In this document: positions 33,192-39,430 of the stretch, piece by piece
Position numbering within the stretch: the first letter of the stretch is position 1
Layout of the letters: each line of letters begins with the position of its first letter
Assembly (NCBI GenBank): GCA_015061365.1
Contig: SUWS01000018.1
Coordinates: forward strand, 1 to 45,444
Direction: 5' to 3'
DNA: 45,444 bases
Origin: Lentimicrobiaceae bacterium
GTDB taxonomy: Bacteria; Bacteroidota; Bacteroidia; Bacteroidales; F082
Notes under the pieces: model-generated
What the model saw: only the letters and a program-made list of their open reading frames with translations
What the model was told of the DNA's origin: nothing
The model's database searches: none
Position numbers and translations under genes: made by a program

Positions 33192-33214
33192 TTCACTATA
33201 TATAATTTAGCCAT

Positions 33215-33279
33215 GAGCCATGAGCTACGAGTTATGGGCAAATAACCCAATGCTCACATCTCATGGCTCTCTGCTTTTT
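33215..33279 (+). terminator. Terminator of the pepD genes built from AGCCATGAGC words
   Basis: GAGCCATGAG (33215-33224) pairs perfectly with CTCATGGCTC (33260-33269). An inner TGGG/CCCA adds to the stem, and a TTTTT run follows at 33275-33279. The 7-base GCCATGA word here is the same one repeated inside the TPR regulator gene. Confidence 0.72.
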
Positions 33280-33480: not shown

Positions 33481-33627
33481 ATGAAACGCACATTTCAACC
33501 ATCAAACAGAAAACGTAGAAACAAACACGGCTTCAGATCAAGAATGTCAACAGCCAATGGTCGTAAAGTTTTAAAAGCACGCCGTGCTAAAGGCAGAAAG
33601 AAACTTACAGTTTCTGACGAGTATTAA
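33481..33627 (+). CDS. rpmH: 50S ribosomal protein L34
   Basis: 48 residues: opens [20 protein letters not shown], then [20 protein letters not shown] and a short KLTVSDEY tail. Very basic, as expected. In many bacteria rpmH lies next to rnpA and dnaA; here it stands alone between pepD and a regulator, with its own -7 box and a terminator. Confidence 0.97.
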
Positions 33628-33729: not shown

Positions 33730-36700
33730 ATGAGAATGCTTCTGCTTTACATATTGCTTGTAGCCTTCGGCTGTCAACAGACAACAGTCAACGGACAACA
33801 GACTCCTTTTTTAGAATCTGAGAATCTGAAAACCTCAGAATCTGAGAAAAGCTGTGAGCCACGAGCAATGAGCAATGAGCCTTTTTTAGAATCTGAAAAT
33901 CTGAAAAACTCAGAATCTGAAAAGGTACTAAAGATTTTTCAGGTTTTCAATTTCTCAGATTCTCAGATTCAAAAAGATTCTCAGGTTTTCAATTTCTCAG
34001 ATTCTCAGATTCAAAAAGATTCTCAGGTTTTCAATTTCTCAGATTCTCAGATTCAAAAAGATTCTCAGGTTTTCAGTTTCTCAGTTTCTCAGATTTTATA
34101 CTTCGAAAACCAAATCCGTCTCGCCGACTCTTTATATAAAAACTATCTCCCGCAATATAACTTTGAGGAAGTTAAAGCTGCGGTGATGTTTTTTGATAGC
34201 CTGCGGCTGACAACAGACCTTTTAGAATCTGAAAATCTGAAAACCTCAGAATCTGAGAAAGGCTGTGAGCCACGAGCTATGAGCCATGAGACTTTTTTAG
34301 AATCTGAAAAATCCGTGAACATCAGTGAAATTTGTGGGAATGAAAAAACAAACCACAAATTGGTACAGAAAAAATCTGAAAAAGGCTGCGAGCAGCGAGC
34401 CATGAGCAATGAGCCTTTTTTAGAATCTGAGAATCTGAAAAACTCAGAATCTGAGAAAAGCTGCGAGCCACGAACAATGAGCAATGAGCCTTTTTCTGAA
34501 ACTGAAAAATCCGTGAACATCAGTGAAATTTGTGGGAATGAAAAAACAAACCACAAATTGGTACAGAAAAAATCTGAGAAAGGCAGCGAGCCACGAGCCA
34601 TGAGCCATGAGCAGAGATTCCACAATACTCAAAGCTCACAGCACGAAGCTCAAAGCCTCAAAAAAACTGTTGACTGTTGTCCGTTGTCTGTTGACATAGA
34701 ATATCAACGCGCTCGCGCGCACTACTACCACGCCGTCGGTCTCACCGAACGCGATGACATCGTAGGAGCCTGCGAACATTATTTCATAGCCTTGGAGATT
34801 ATGGAATCAGAAACTGAAAATCTGAAAACCTCAAAATCTGAAAAACGGCTAAAGATTAAAGACAAAAGGCTAAAAGTCTCGGTCACTGAACCTGTCGAAG
34901 CGCCGAATGATGGCGTTGTGCCTTCGACAAGCTCAGGCACCACTACCACAAGGACTGTTGACCGTTGTCTGTTGTCTGTTGACAATCCGGAGGATTACGA
35001 AAAAATCCGTTTCCTCTCATTGATTTATACGAGATTAGGCGAATTGTTCCTTAGTGAAAACTACTGCGACCTTGCGATTTCCAAATACAGAAAAGCATTG
35101 AAATATAAGTTATTGCTTGGAGAAAACAAAGCCGTAGCTAACACATACAAATGCTTGGGCAATTCGTATCAGCTTTACAACATGCCCGACAGCGCATTGT
35201 ATTATTATAATAAGTCGTTGGAAACCAACTCCGAACTTCCGAACAGGTTAGATGTCGAGAAATGCATAGCCCAGATCCTATTTGATAAAGGAGAAAAGGA
35301 CAGTGCGTATATTATGATCAAGAATAATTTGGACAAGATTGAGAATGTCAATATAATATACTCCTACTATAACATATTAGGAGACATGTATATAAATGAT
35401 AAAGAATATGATTGTGCCATCTATTATCTTGATAAAAGCATGAATAGTACAATATCCGATATAAGAGTATATGCAGCCATTAGACTTTCCTCGATATATA
35501 ATATCATTGGTGATAACATAAAGAAAGCGTATTATGATAATATTGTCTCTAAAATATTAATAGATTACAATAATTCAAATATTGAAACAAGCAAGTTGCA
35601 ATATATATATGACAGATATAAGGAGAGAAAATCCGAAAAGGAAAAATCAATAAGCAGAATGAGAACAAAAGTTATTGCAGTATCACTTTCTGTACTTGTG
35701 TTCATAACTTTTGTCATTACAATTCTAATCTTGCGCAAATCTAAAAGAAAAGATAAATATATAGCAAGCAAAGAAGAAATAATCAGTAATACAAATGAGA
35801 AAATAAAACAGAAAGAATCTGAGATAAAGAAACTTATTGAAGCAATAGAACGTTACAGAACTGACATCAATTCCATTAAGAATGAAGTGGTTATAAAAGA
35901 ACATGAAATATCATCTAAAGAATCCGTCATCAAGAATATGGAAGACGATCTGTCGGCAAAAGAGGGGGAATTGAAAAAACTTCAGGAAAATATTCATGAA
36001 TACATGATATTGATTAACAATCTGAATGAAGATAATATAGCGAAAAAGAAACAGATAAAAAGTCATCTTGAAGAGATTGAAAATAACAGGCAAGTGATAA
36101 ACGATAAGGACCGTCTTATTTCCATTGCGACCGAAGGATTGATTACAAGAAAGGATGCCATCGCTGAAAACAGAAATGAGATCGCAAGGCTGCAGGCGAT
36201 TATAGGCGAGAATGACAAGATTATAAATAGAATGTCTAAAGATTATAAAACCAATGAAGAATTGATAGCAATACAAACAGAGAAAATAGAGAAATTGAAA
36301 ACTGAGATAAATGAGACGAGAAACAATCTTGACGATCTAAGATTCAGAAATTCCTCCACTGAAGGCAGAATAAAGAGCCTAAATGCCGAATTGAAGAAAA
36401 AAGAGGAACTTATAAAGAAATTTACGGCAGAAATTTCAAATCTAAGGTACAGATTGGAAAGGAATCATATTGAGATCTCAAATCTAAACAATTATCTCCA
36501 ATCAGAGGTTTGTACGAGGATACTTAAGGAAATAAAAGAACTTTCTGAAAATAATATGGATACTTCCGAATTAACAACTATGTCTCAGAAGGAACTGGTT
36601 TTATTATTAAATTCCGCAAATTTTCACCTAAACTATTTTATGAATGACATCGCCAACAAGTATTCAAGACTGAAAAAGGAAGATTTGTATTATTTGTGTC

Positions 36701-36849
36701 TTGTAATTATCGGATTGAACAACAGTCAAATTTCTTCATTGCTTGGCGTGACATACACTGCTGTAAGAAAAAGGAAGAATAAAATTTGCAAGTTATTAGG
36801 ATTAGATATAAAAGAAAATCTATATAATCATCTCCTGAACCTAATCTAA
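33730..36849 (+). CDS. TPR-transmembrane-coiled-coil-HTH lipoprotein regulator with in-frame repeat inserts
   Basis: 1039 residues. In order: hydrophobic signal with a loose lipobox (VAFGC, Cys15); insert 1 (about 17-123); a short helical stretch like the ADSLM...DSL start of this Bacteroidota family (124-162); insert 2 (164-321); helical TPR-like segment (323-358); insert 3 (359-418); TPR repeats (about 424-600); one membrane helix (646-670); a long coiled coil (about 672-925); and a C-terminal helix-turn-helix (about 985-1035, NNSQISSLLGVTYTAVRKRKNKI). The layout suggests sensing in the periplasm with DNA binding in the cytoplasm. The inserts consist of repeat words found in spacers of this window (FLESENLK.SESEK, CEPRAMSNEP). 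They keep the frame and sit between helices. Target genes are unknown; the adjacent secreted-protein gene is a guess. The frame is open throughout, so it is not called a pseudogene. Confidence 0.85.
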   Translation: MRMLLLYILLVAFGCQQTTVNGQQTPFLESENLKTSESEKSCEPRAMSNEPFLESENLKNSESEKVLKIFQVFNFSDSQIQKDSQVFNFSDSQIQKDSQVFNFSDSQIQKDSQVFSFSVSQILYFENQIRLADSLYKNYLPQYNFEEVKAAVMFFDSLRLTTDLLESENLKTSESEKGCEPRAMSHETFLESEKSVNISEICGNEKTNHKLVQKKSEKGCEQRAMSNEPFLESENLKNSESEKSCEPRTMSNEPFSETEKSVNISEICGNEKTNHKLVQKKSEKGSEPRAMSHEQRFHNTQSSQHEAQSLKKTVDCCPLSVDIEYQRARAHYYHAVGLTERDDIVGACEHYFIALEIMESETENLKTSKSEKRLKIKDKRLKVSVTEPVEAPNDGVVPSTSSGTTTTRTVDRCLLSVDNPEDYEKIRFLSLIYTRLGELFLSENYCDLAISKYRKALKYKLLLGENKAVANTYKCLGNSYQLYNMPDSALYYYNKSLETNSELPNRLDVEKCIAQILFDKGEKDSAYIMIKNNLDKIENVNIIYSYYNILGDMYINDKEYDCAIYYLDKSMNSTISDIRVYAAIRLSSIYNIIGDNIKKAYYDNIVSKILIDYNNSNIETSKLQYIYDRYKERKSEKEKSISRMRTKVIAVSLSVLVFITFVITILILRKSKRKDKYIASKEEIISNTNEKIKQKESEIKKLIEAIERYRTDINSIKNEVVIKEHEISSKESVIKNMEDDLSAKEGELKKLQENIHEYMILINNLNEDNIAKKKQIKSHLEEIENNRQVINDKDRLISIATEGLITRKDAIAENRNEIARLQAIIGENDKIINRMSKDYKTNEELIAIQTEKIEKLKTEINETRNNLDDLRFRNSSTEGRIKSLNAELKKKEELIKKFTAEISNLRYRLERNHIEISNLNNYLQSEVCTRILKEIKELSENNMDTSELTTMSQKELVLLLNSANFHLNYFMNDIANKYSRLKKEDLYYLCLVIIGLNNSQISSLLGVTYTAVRKRKNKICKLLGLDIKENLYNHLLNLI
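33941..34066 (+). repeat. Three perfect 42-bp tandem copies inside the TPR gene
   Basis: Unit starts at 33941, 33983 and 34025, each 42 bases (14 codons, encoding a QVFNFSDSQIQKDS cycle), with a decayed partial fourth copy after. The unit is made of CTCAGATT words with an 8-base period. Because 42 is a multiple of three, copy-number change keeps the frame. Confidence 0.93.
34304..34378 (+). repeat. 75-bp direct repeat, copy A
   Basis: Identical to 34502-34576. It encodes SVNISEICGNEKTNHK and following residues. The segment around ATCAGTGAAATTTGTGGG resembles the spacer sequence at 37351-37377. Confidence 0.92.
34502..34576 (+). repeat. 75-bp direct repeat, copy B
   Basis: Perfect copy of 34304-34378, offset by 198 bases (66 codons). 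Flanks are also similar, so the duplicated unit is probably about 198 bases with faster change in the GAGCCATGAGC words. Confidence 0.92.
34886..34936. repeat. REP-like palindrome inside the TPR gene
   Basis: CTGAACCTGTCGAAG (34886-34900) and CTTCGACAAGCTCAG (34922-34936) match as inverted arms at 13 of 15 positions, with an inner CGCC/GGCG. It encodes part of TEPVEAPNDGVVPSTSSG. CTGAGCTTGTCGAAG-type palindromes are common spacer elements in many bacterial genomes; here one is read as protein. Confidence 0.8.
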
Positions 36850-37465: not shown

Positions 37466-37504
37466 AAAAAAAGGAAATTATAAACAATTAAAAAATTATT
37501 GTAT

Positions 37505-39103
37505 ATGAATAAATATAGATTGTTCGTGTGTTTGTTAACTCTGCTTTTATGCAGAGTTAACAAACTTTTTTCTCAGGAATGGGTATATGAGTTTGATGAT
37601 ACTGAGTGTTTATTAGAGGAAGCAGTAGAATTACCCAATGGAAAGATTGCAGTATCTTACTATTTATTTAGAAATGAAGAAAATTGTTTATCGTATGATC
37701 CTGCAGTATTAATACTATCATCAGATGGCATAGAGTTGAACAGAAATATTTTTTTTCGTGAAGGATATACTACAACGTCATTTGCTCCATATCTCTTTGT
37801 AAACGATGGAGAATTATATGCTCTATCTACATATAGTCCGGATCATAATTATCGTAGTCCTAATTATTTTATGAACTACGATATTCCCCCGACTGATGCG
37901 AAAATAGTATTGTCAAAATTGGATGACAAGCTCAATATTGTTGAAAGCTATGAACATAGTTTCCCTATTGATACATTTGAGGATACAGAATGGTGGCAAT
38001 GGCAAGAAGATCCTAATCTGTTCAGTGGTAATATATTTATGTTTTCTACTCTTGAAGATGAAGGAAACATAATAGGAGCATACATCAAAAAAGTTAGTGC
38101 GGATATTGATAATCCTCGTGGCAACGATTCTTTATTTCTTTTCAGGATGAATTTTGAAGGGGAATTGTTAGATCTTAAGGGATATGAAACTGGAGGCAAG
38201 GGTTTGGGTGTTCCCCAATATAGATATCGCAGAGAACAAATTGTAAAAACTGATTCTCATTATATTTTCTATGATAAAGATAATATTGGTAATAGACATG
38301 GTAAGATAGTATATTATGACAAAGAGTTTAATCATATAACAACAAAATATATGATACATCCTGATTATAATAATAGTATTTATGGTCTCCCTCCTGTTAT
38401 AGACCCTTTAGAAGACATTACAGTCTTAAAGCTAAATGATAATACAACATATCTGTCTGTCACCGTAACTTGTGATGAGAATCCATTGGATGATTTTTAT
38501 AATGATGTCAGATTATATAAATTAGATGACAACATAGAGAACTCATCGGATTTTTTGTCAACAGACAATTATATACACAGGGGCACTCCATACACTTATG
38601 AACTAGCAATAACGGTAAATTCCATTGTCATCGTTAATGATACATCAATGTATTTTGCATATAATTGTGATGTAATAGGTAAACCTTATAGTGTGATAGA
38701 ATATTTAAATACTGACATGGGCACTATTTCCACTTTTATTCATGACAAAACTCTTAATATGATTAAAGCAACAAAGGATGGAGGTTTATTCGCTCTAGGG
38801 TATAACAATATCACAAAATTCCCTGCATCGGCATTTGTCAGCATCGAAGAAGCTCACGCACATAACCTGCATCTTGCCGTAGTTTATCCTAATCCCGGAG
38901 GTGATGTTTTGAATATAAGAACCGGCTTGCGTAACGCTACATTGCAAGTCTATGATATGCAAGGAAGAATAATCCATCAACAAATAATTACAGATGAAGT
39001 CACAAGCATAGACGCCTCTAAATGGAGCTCGGGAACTTACGTTTGGAAGTTGAAAACTGAAAATGGAAAGTTGAAAGTTGAAGAGGGGAAGTGGATTAAA
39101 TAG
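37505..39103 (+). CDS. Secreted protein with type IX sorting domain
   Basis: 532 residues from the ATG at 37505; a TTG two codons earlier is open but not preferred. Signal peptide about 1-24 (ends NKLFSQ before EW). The body (about 25-450) is rich in beta strands and aromatic residues, perhaps propeller-like; I do not recognise a family. The C-terminal ~75 residues are a type A T9SS sorting domain: VVYPNPGGDVLNIRTG, LQVYDMQGR, WSSGTYVWKL and GKWIK. The protein should cross the outer membrane by the Por system and be anchored or released. A perfect 14-bp inverted repeat sits within the signal-peptide codons. The final hairpin of the sorting domain is encoded by AAGTTGAAAACTGAAAATGG-like repeat words. 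Confidence 0.86.
   Translation: MNKYRLFVCLLTLLLCRVNKLFSQEWVYEFDDTECLLEEAVELPNGKIAVSYYLFRNEENCLSYDPAVLILSSDGIELNRNIFFREGYTTTSFAPYLFVNDGELYALSTYSPDHNYRSPNYFMNYDIPPTDAKIVLSKLDDKLNIVESYEHSFPIDTFEDTEWWQWQEDPNLFSGNIFMFSTLEDEGNIIGAYIKKVSADIDNPRGNDSLFLFRMNFEGELLDLKGYETGGKGLGVPQYRYRREQIVKTDSHYIFYDKDNIGNRHGKIVYYDKEFNHITTKYMIHPDYNNSIYGLPPVIDPLEDITVLKLNDNTTYLSVTVTCDENPLDDFYNDVRLYKLDDNIENSSDFLSTDNYIHRGTPYTYELAITVNSIVIVNDTSMYFAYNCDVIGKPYSVIEYLNTDMGTISTFIHDKTLNMIKATKDGGLFALGYNNITKFPASAFVSIEEAHAHNLHLAVVYPNPGGDVLNIRTGLRNATLQVYDMQGRIIHQQIITDEVTSIDASKWSSGTYVWKLKTENGKLKVEEGKWIK
37531..37570 (+). promoter_or_regulatory. Perfect hairpin with T run inside the signal-peptide codons
   Basis: TTTGTTAACTCTGC (37531-37544), loop TTTTAT, then GCAGAGTTAACAAA (37551-37564), followed by CTTTTTT. 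The shape is that of an intrinsic terminator about 26-60 bases into the coding sequence. It may attenuate transcription or affect translation; alternatively it is a palindromic insert in the signal peptide. Confidence 0.6.
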
Positions 39104-39230: not shown

Positions 39231-39235
39231 GAAAC

Positions 39236-39430
39236 TGAAAATCTGAAAATCTGAGAATCTGTGAAAAGTTTTGAACTTTGAGCTGTTGAACTTTGAACTA
39301 AAGTTCAAAAGCCTTAGTTCAACAGCCTTAGTTCAAAGTTCAATAGCCTTAGTTCAAAGCTCCAGAGTTTATTTAATTCATAATGCATAATCAAAATAAT
39401 TATGAATTGTGAATTATGAATTATGAATTG
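39236..39430. repeat. Mixed heptad/octad tract
   Basis: AATCTGAAAATCTGAG words, then TTGAACTTTGA words followed by their inverse (AGTTCAAAGTTCAA, with TAGCCTT inserts), then ATTATGAATT words in both orientations. AATTCATAAT (39376-39385) and ATTATGAATT words farther right can form a perfect 10-bp stem. Confidence 0.8.

Follow-up and report, generated by a model that had tools for sequence, protein, structure and literature searches.

Spacer repeat words in the coding frame of a regulator family and of other genes in a Lentimicrobiaceae bacterium

Tandem heptamer and octamer repeats of spacers go by the names LSSR and STRR. In excerpts of two papers, Rickettsia palindromic elements (RPEs) and the protein-coding palindromes of Wolbachia are described as lying in frame in unrelated housekeeping genes, within non-structured segments; RPEs are about 150 bp long and fall into ten families, each encoding a conserved peptide (PMC10969869, PMC2996958). 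One of these excerpts also describes PARCEL, coding repeats of mycoplasmas and others whose modules are spread among membrane proteins (PMC2996958). Direct repeats of the heptamer TAACTGA have been reported from Beggiatoaceae, Cyanobacteria and five Bacteroidetes (PMC4679880). Here, we describe a gene (positions 33730-36849, forward strand) that encodes a regulator-like protein in the Lentimicrobiaceae bacterium assembly GCA_015061365.1. The gene lies in a stretch of 45,444 nucleotides (contig SUWS01000018.1), the whole of which was analysed and is referred to below as the window. Spacer words mapped to this protein lie almost wholly inside its three linkers.

The source genome (G000) is a 2.94-Mb draft of 115 contigs that is 96% complete. 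Other G-numbers denote relative genomes, L-numbers loci and C-numbers contigs. The named relatives are uncultured Bacteroidales or Lentimicrobiaceae metagenome-assembled genomes (MAGs), several of them labelled water buffalo, yak or roe deer gut. The first 20 stretches of G000 were chosen at word matches and 10 more were added at arbitrary positions; several stretches of G085, G086, G087, G089, G090 and G091 were taken from contigs with word matches.

The open reading frame (ORF) encodes 1039 amino acids without an internal stop. Its linkers alternate with two conserved blocks, T1 and T2 (Table 1), each of which, judging from its sequence, is probably one TPR helix pair. The preliminary description of this DNA had placed three inserts at residues 17-123, 164-321 and 359-418, in good agreement with the boundaries that comparison with relatives gives in Table 1. 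It had also stated that the inserts keep the frame and lie between helical parts, and both statements hold: there are no in-frame stops across the inserts, which sit between conserved, helical-looking blocks, and the other parts of the protein are nearly word-free. Linker 1 contains CAACAGTCAACGGACAACAG, forward AATCTGA units cleared of their stop, words of the GAGCCACGAGC type and, after these, about 3.9 copies (33930-34095) of a 42-bp unit in which the octamer runs in reverse orientation. Linker 2 is a tandem pair of a 198-bp unit (34220-34612), itself composed of AATCTGA, GAGCCATGAGC and ATCAGTGAAATTTGTGGG words, followed by GTTGACTGTTGTCCG. Linker 3 holds a stop-cleared AATCTGA word, words of the AAAGGCTAAAAG type, palindromic words (TGAACCTGTCGAAG / CCTTCGACAAGCTCAGGCAC) resembling repetitive extragenic palindromes (REP-like), and GTTGAC heptamers. 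The REP-like words at 34879-34945 are translated as VTEPVEAP..VPSTSSGT; the same words occur in linkers of the G085, G087 and G089 members, where they were recognised as peptides only.

Table 1. Coordinates of the regulator gene parts and of related word-bearing features (window positions unless a locus is named).
Feature	Position	Strand	Basis
Hydrophobic N-terminal signal segment, residues 1-16	33730..33777	+	sequence
Linker 1, residues 17-124, 108 aa	33778..34101	+	comparison with relatives, word map
Conserved block T1, residues 125-157 (33 aa)	34102..34200	+	comparison with relatives
Linker 2, residues 158-327, 170 aa	34201..34710	+	comparison with relatives, word map
Conserved block T2, residues 328-359 (32 aa)	34711..34806	+	comparison with relatives
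Linker 3, residues 360-424, 65 aa	34807..35001	+	comparison with relatives, word map
Remainder, residues 425-1039, nearly word-free	35002..36846	+	Pfam/NCBIfam weak matches, sequence reading
Stop-cleared octamer unit AACCTCAGAATCTGA (TCA for spacer TGA)	33831..33845	+	pattern search
Spacer with GAGCCATGAGC word, upstream of rpmH	33208..33275	+	word search
Spacer copy of AATCTGA octamer array, TGA form	39232..39263	+	word search
Sorting-type domain ORF	L128:9315-11348		
Sorting-type domain ORF	L130:3378-4778		
Sorting-type domain ORF	L131:2032-3414		
Sorting-type domain ORF	L131:7161-7610		
Sorting-type domain ORF	L233:11726-13780		

The linker words recur in spacers. GAGCCATGAGC is present five times in the window (expected 0), three times in the gene and twice in spacers (33215 and 37443). 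ATCAGTGAAATNTGTGGG, with up to three mismatches, is present twice in the gene and once in a spacer (37360; 0.25 expected in the window), and AATCTGAAAATCTGAG, with up to two mismatches, has 20 sites in the window where 0.11 are expected. Together with GTTGACTGTTGTCCG, these are the words that the preliminary description had named as common to inserts and spacers. All four lie far above chance in the window, and for GAGCCATGAGC and ATCAGTGAAATNTGTGGG the naming was correct for both gene and window spacers. The exact 16-mer AATCTGAAAATCTGAG is found within the window only at 39240 and is absent from the gene, which carries the 15-mer AATCTGAAAATCTGA at 33890 and 34226 along with one- and two-mismatch forms. 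All four window sites of GTTGACTGTTGTCCG (up to two mismatches) lie within the gene and none in window spacers; for a related heptamer, the G000 stretches examined contain 80 noncoding sites.

Among the periods that Tandem Repeats Finder gave for the window are 7, 8, 14, 21 and 42 bp. In 0.67 Mb of G000, family genes included, repeated 12-mers cover 16% of noncoding versus 1.7% of coding bases. Word coverage is 17.0% of noncoding versus 0.6% of coding sequence in word-picked stretches and 8.0% versus 0.6% in other stretches, and tandem units of 7-8 bp are mostly noncoding. When 60 same-genus genomes were searched, AATCTGAAAATCTGA was found in 86 copies in G000, six in G027 and one in G064, and not in the remaining 57. 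DNA resembling linker 2 is also present in genomes reached through MAG loci.

For the comparison of linker vocabularies, backgrounds of equal size (about 90-98 kb from each genome) were used, some of them chosen at word matches; for G000 the background was the 10 arbitrary-position stretches plus the window. The share of linker 12-mers recurring in their own background was 8.8% in G000, 12.6% in G009, 15.6% in G085, 26.8% in G086, 18.3% in G087 and 27.1% in G089. For the same six genomes, the corresponding values were 0.9-4.2% for T1/T2 12-mers and 4.0-5.7% for the remainder of the gene. Linkers of the word-poor G090 and G091 gave 3.9% and 2.9% in their own backgrounds (G090 gave 14.0% in that of G091), and with G092 as background linker 12-mer recurrence was 1.0-5.0%. 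Among 19 collinear gaps between G000 and other genomes, several carry different words in the two species; the gaps are not spacers in every case, and one falls within the BirA gene. Collinear spacers (e.g., L213 vs L140) were also seen to hold different tandem words in several cases. This suggests that words turn over outside genes too.

The relation of the words to the coding frame is most evident in the octamer. Read forward, AATCTGAA gives an in-frame TGA once per three units. Across the G000 genome, the pattern AANCTSARAATCTGA is found at 264 sites and the form with TCA for TGA at 12. Each of the 12 is inside a gene and at the very place where TGA would terminate the frame, and no TCA form was found outside genes in the whole genome. 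Eleven are in four of the five family genes (five on C58, four on C87 and one each on C59 and C92). Across the five family genes, forward units in codon phase 0 have TCA without exception (11/11) and units out of phase have TGA (18/18). The twelfth form, also in phase 0, is at residue 303 of a 613-aa radical-SAM/DUF6873 ORF on C10. The cleared units read AACCTCA or AAACTCA in the family and AATCTCA on C10; in the window gene, AACCTCAGAATCTGA or a variant of it is also found at 33906, 34242, 34440 and 34827. None of the 15 linkers of the five G000 family genes has a stop in the coding frame. In the same linkers, stops number 2-20 in each of the other two forward frames and 0-11 in the reverse frames, of which one is open as well in three of the 15. 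In overlapping 180-nt segments of word-rich spacers, 146 of 3798 frames are open (3.8%).

The family was compared in a linker table of 33 listed members. L116, L119, L120, L123 and L124 have no linker 2-3 values in it. L118 and L125 fell outside the linker search patterns, L118 being read by eye and its linker 2 measured separately. L113 was excluded, its first 860 nt being those of L098, and the G009 loci L095, L101, L102, L104 and L122 are represented by L034, L043, L044, L045 and L042. The first linker of L035 is overestimated, as part of the signal segment is included. Four paralogues in G000 have word-built linkers at the same three sites (linker 2, 47-111 residues; linker 3, 42 residues). 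The second and third linkers have 29 and 27 residues in the G009 orthologue. In the word-poor G090, linkers 1, 2 and 3 have 18, 15 and 11-14 residues, and in the word-poor G091 20-21, 24-26 and 19-31; second linkers measure 15 residues in L118 and 15-26 in the members of G090, G091 and G092. The comparison of orthologues proposed in the preliminary description thus gave relatives without these words that lack the inserts or carry other words, and not inserts conserved in sequence in genomes without spacer-type repeats. Some linker pieces are shared between species: LKIFQVFNFSDSQIQKDSQV is common to G000 and G086, with a near-identical stretch preceding it, and ETENLRTSKSES to G000 (C87) and G085.

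The conserved parts behave differently from the linkers. On the ratio of nonsynonymous to synonymous substitution rates (dN/dS) between the window gene and the G009 orthologue (T1, 0.15; T2, 0.10; rest, 0.19), they are under purifying selection. The T1 protein is 100% identical in all 10 pairs of the five G000 paralogues (DNA, 94-99%), whereas only 33-53% of residues are shared over 418-466 aligned C-terminal codons. Such near-fixed T1/T2 blocks beside divergent C-termini point to recent exchange of an N-terminal cassette. The cassette (33730-34806 in the window; L035-L038) looks alike as if exchanged by gene conversion, and four of five G009 paralogues reach contig ends at it.

Spacer words have also been found inside other genes. 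A scan of 31 sources of G000 for ORFs of at least 150 residues showed interior runs of spacer words (at least 20 nt) in 27 of 417 ORFs, against one of the 417 when the words were reversed. The 11 sources chosen without regard to words (the window and 10 stretches; 156 ORFs) gave nine such ORFs, the window gene included, against none in the control. Among the 27, RimO, TilS, BirA, Lnt and a GYDIA-type kinase score above NCBIfam cut-offs (full or domain models); a family-9 glycosyltransferase, a methyltransferase and an aldehyde dehydrogenase are also among them. ThiE scores above its NCBIfam cut-off and bears words by word mapping, but stands outside the 27. The view of the regulator as a special case is not supported, since the same is seen in the cytoplasmic RimO, TilS, ThiE and BirA. 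Neighbouring genes with heptamer words in frame were seen beside TilS and the family-9 glycosyltransferase (L126:115-579 and L135:2068-3708), and inserts may cluster locally.

Orientation was examined for the GTTGACTG (GTTGAC) heptamer in genes outside the family. In 10 stretch sets from nine genomes, with the first 30 and last 10 codons excluded, the stop-free orientation was found in 42 genes and the opposite one in a single gene (29 vs 0 in G000 alone). The favoured orientation translates as a QQTTDNGQQ-type peptide. The excluded G000 cases comprise six forward sites (four interior, two edge) in two genes, at residues 12-25 and with an uncertain start codon; with terminal codons kept, a count by hand gave 30 versus 2 genes in G000. 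For the octamer outside the family the count was nine genes versus two, too few to prove much. The heptamer bias is the remainder expected from a stop-codon filter on random insertions, in a count that is less than fully independent.

Two enzymes show what happens at a single site. Aligned with the solved structures 4jc0 and 2qgq, the RimO insert of about 25 residues lies in a gapped stretch before the radical SAM part; the first TilS insert likewise falls at a gap when aligned with solved structures. Of 24 aligned relatives, 23 lack the RimO insert, and the remaining one, G009, has words of its own (in the RimO and TilS alignments of relatives, four of 28 loci each were without sequence, and L275 and L305 were not included). 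Translated, the words in TilS, RimO or the regulator would give peptides of the FLESENLKTSESEK or QQTTDNGQQ type. In the word-site comparison across the clade, which had no TilS sequence from G087, the RimO site holds AATCTGA and TCAGATT in G000, GGAATTA in G009, G085, G087 and G089, and TCAGATT in G091. It holds ACTTGGAG-type words in G086, GACTTTGCG-type words in G088 and a 13-nt unit, GGGTCTCGGGGAC, in G090. TilS site 1 has AGACTAC in G009, G088 and G089, ACAACAG in G086 and GCCGTCA in G085, the others being mixed. Fewer kinds are found at TilS sites 2 and 3, where ACAACAG and TCAGATT are common to G000, G085, G086, G090 and G091; GACTCTGC-type words occupy site 3 in G009, G088 and G089. 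No words were found at the RimO and TilS sites in G012 and G005, members of the genus without the octamer.

Taken together, we consider it very probable that spacer repeats are tolerated and turned over in length-tolerant linkers and are filtered there by purifying selection. The three linkers of the regulator would be genuine coding segments made of the lineage's spacer words, that is, tandem units of 7-8 bp and a few longer ones. In many proteins, words of this kind would find their way into linkers and loops that tolerate changes of length, and would persist only when the frame stays open. Selection would be visible in three ways, namely orientation, the clearing of stops within units and frame keeping; arrays that land in the open orientation or are cleared of stops would be retained, and others lost. 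As neither 7 nor 8 is divisible by 3, a perfect array yields, as a matter of arithmetic, one and the same cyclic peptide whichever of the three frames is read; in a given orientation, either all of its frames are open or all are closed. This frame-independence may explain why arrays are tolerated wherever the words land. The regulator family would be the extreme case because the linkers between its blocks have room for up to about 155 additional residues, and it would accumulate most words because it has three loops and paralogues that seemingly exchange N-terminal parts. Words may arrive by ectopic copying or conversion from spacers, by template switching or by slippage from a seed; that genes were "invaded", as the preliminary description put it, is a direction that we infer. 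The inserts would be neutral or nearly so, and the protein is presumably made. A further proposal, which we regard as possible but doubtful, is that an ongoing process of the clade rewrites tandem words in place. The vocabulary current in each species would then overwrite the older words of orthologous spacers and permissive loops alike, enzyme loops being replaced en bloc by the spreading word under a stop-codon filter. If true, this would be a repeat-conversion system that acts on protein sequence with no mobile element.

Several points weigh against tolerance and turnover as set out here, or narrow it. Homologous sorting-type domains account for at least five of the 27 ORFs with words, and a mis-called start is probable for at least one (L140 11579), so the counts of 27 and 42 are not all independent. 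Likewise, shared descent, internal duplication and probable gene conversion mean that the 11 cleared units in the family are not 11 events. The GGAATTA word gave no clear second case of stop clearing, since GGAATGA-type units are also common in the spacers of some genomes. The words at TilS sites 2 and 3, shared by five species, are largely inherited. Linker 12-mers of G000 recur less in their own background (8.8%) than in those of G085, G086, G089, G090 and G091 (9.8-17.6%); the background that matches best is thus not always the own one, the vocabulary belongs largely to the clade as a whole, and specificity of linker words to their own genome is not clean. G091 has 28 noncoding AATCTGA sites in 200 kb (partly word-picked contigs), yet its family linkers are short and word-free, and spacer words thus do not enter loops automatically. 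The dN/dS of linkers between paralogues is 0.18-0.68, on repeat alignments that are unsafe; with values below 1, either some constraint or an artefact of repeat alignment remains, and for that reason linker dN/dS is not a main argument.

Other explanations have been considered. Linkers that were coding from the start, with the spacer words derived from them, would account for the pieces LKIFQVFNFSDSQIQKDSQV (G000/G086) and ETENLRTSKSES (G000 C87/G085) that species share. Such old inherited coding repeats are nevertheless improbable given the short linkers of word-poor relatives, the far greater coverage of spacers than of genes by words (17.0% vs 0.6%; 8.0% vs 0.6%), and the wide differences between species in the words at RimO and TilS site 1. 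The preliminary description had suggested that the inserts could make a variable surface or a flexible sensor region on the periplasmic side; in an adaptive role of this kind, changes in the sequence or length of the linkers would be selected. Linker length and sequence do vary strongly among paralogues and species while T1 and T2 hardly vary; however, the cytoplasmic TilS, RimO, ThiE and BirA have inserts of the same kind, members in G090, G091 and G092 make do with second linkers of 15-26 residues, and the words match spacers instead of evolving freely. We judge this role quite improbable.

Short-read collapse or chimeras in repeat-rich DNA could have produced the linkers, and in a draft of 115 contigs the 198-bp tandem pair and the four-copy 42-bp array could be miscounted, so the copy number of both units may be wrong. 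As an account of the linkers as such, an assembly artefact is very improbable: word-built linkers are found in five genes on five contigs, four of them with stop-cleared units in phase, and separate assemblies from other samples have word-built linkers as well. Hardly credible is a pseudogene or an untranslated stretch that is open by chance. One orientation of the octamer is stop-free by itself, but forward octamers would give TGA every 24 nt and are cleared only in phase, just 3.8% of frames are open in the 180-nt word-rich spacer segments, and dN/dS between the conserved parts and those of the G009 orthologue is 0.10-0.19.

Tolerance and turnover of spacer words, if correct, let the passage from noncoding repeat to protein be studied as a large natural experiment, in enzymes that can be assayed. 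Many in-frame captures are available, with orthologues that lack them or carry other words for comparison. The tolerance of loops for foreign sequence, the clearing of stops and the swapping of 7-8-bp words over short evolutionary times become testable. There is also a warning, as translated spacer words distort comparisons of protein length and domains in these bacteria.

The remainder of the regulator and its surroundings are summarised here. Residues 425-1039 contain a TPR region, a membrane segment, a long coiled coil and a C-terminal HTH-like region (membrane and HTH parts by reading the sequence). Pfam TPR_12 matches residues 432-498 (E 8.2e-05; 23.2 bits against a gathering score of 30.1) and TPR_1 also matches (E 0.00055; 20.1 against 27.8 bits), the TPR matches spanning residues 432-501. 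A profile built from nine family members matches TPR structures. With scores that are significant but below the cut-offs, the regulator is best called TPR-like rather than a Pfam TPR member. The earlier label "lipoprotein" is uncertain: Cys15 is there in the window gene but missing from the four closest G000 paralogues, and a cysteine lies near this position in other members (C23, C8, G009 C48, G027 C52). The upstream neighbour is a short ORF (33481-33627) that reads by eye as ribosomal protein L34 (rpmH). A 21-bp tandem array at 39045-39092, at the end of gene 37499-39103, is translated as KLKTENGKLKVEEGK. In the sorting-type ORFs of Table 1, C-terminal domains of secreted-looking proteins hold the heptamer as STDNGQQTTVKIYN or alike.

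How does this locus compare with known systems? For the regulator itself, NCBIfam gave coiled-coil type matches and a weak BT3442-family match at the C-terminus. BT3442-type proteins (NCBIfam NF053779) are TPR / membrane / HTH regulators of Bacteroidota. The C-terminal 117 amino acids resemble NF053779 weakly (E 2e-05), the score of 23.6 bits lies far below the cut-off of 940, and only the C-terminal part is matched. For the words, a limited literature search found no report of in-frame spacer words in Bacteroidales. With PARCEL, the linkers share the character of repeated coding DNA, but the words here do not specify a fixed module, and they occur in spacers as well. The units are of the same tandem type as the TAACTGA repeats: excerpts of that work describe tandem 7-mers mainly in spacers and some in ORFs, forward repeats that close all three frames and reverse ones that leave them open, and copies in genes chiefly at the ends of ORFs or away from assigned functional regions, an RNA-polymerase-like ORF excepted (PMC4679880). 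The present words differ in lying inside enzymes and regulators, in having stop-cleared units and in differing at one site among relatives.

The comparison with RPEs, made in the preliminary description, is apt in the sense of something that works alike, since the repeats occur both between genes and in frame inside genes. A single palindromic element of about 150 bp was not found; the inserts are mosaics of short words, with both orientations in one linker. Within 33730-35010 there are 58 inverted pairs, the 25 longest having arms of 30-49 nt that are 75-93% complementary and 56-1153 nt apart. Hairpins are possible there on pairing of the sequence, but the inverted pairs join separate arrays and form no compact palindrome. 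Unlike RPEs, the words here are mostly tandem units of 7-8 bp, of many kinds and with no single conserved peptide, and related species can hold different words and peptides at one and the same site.
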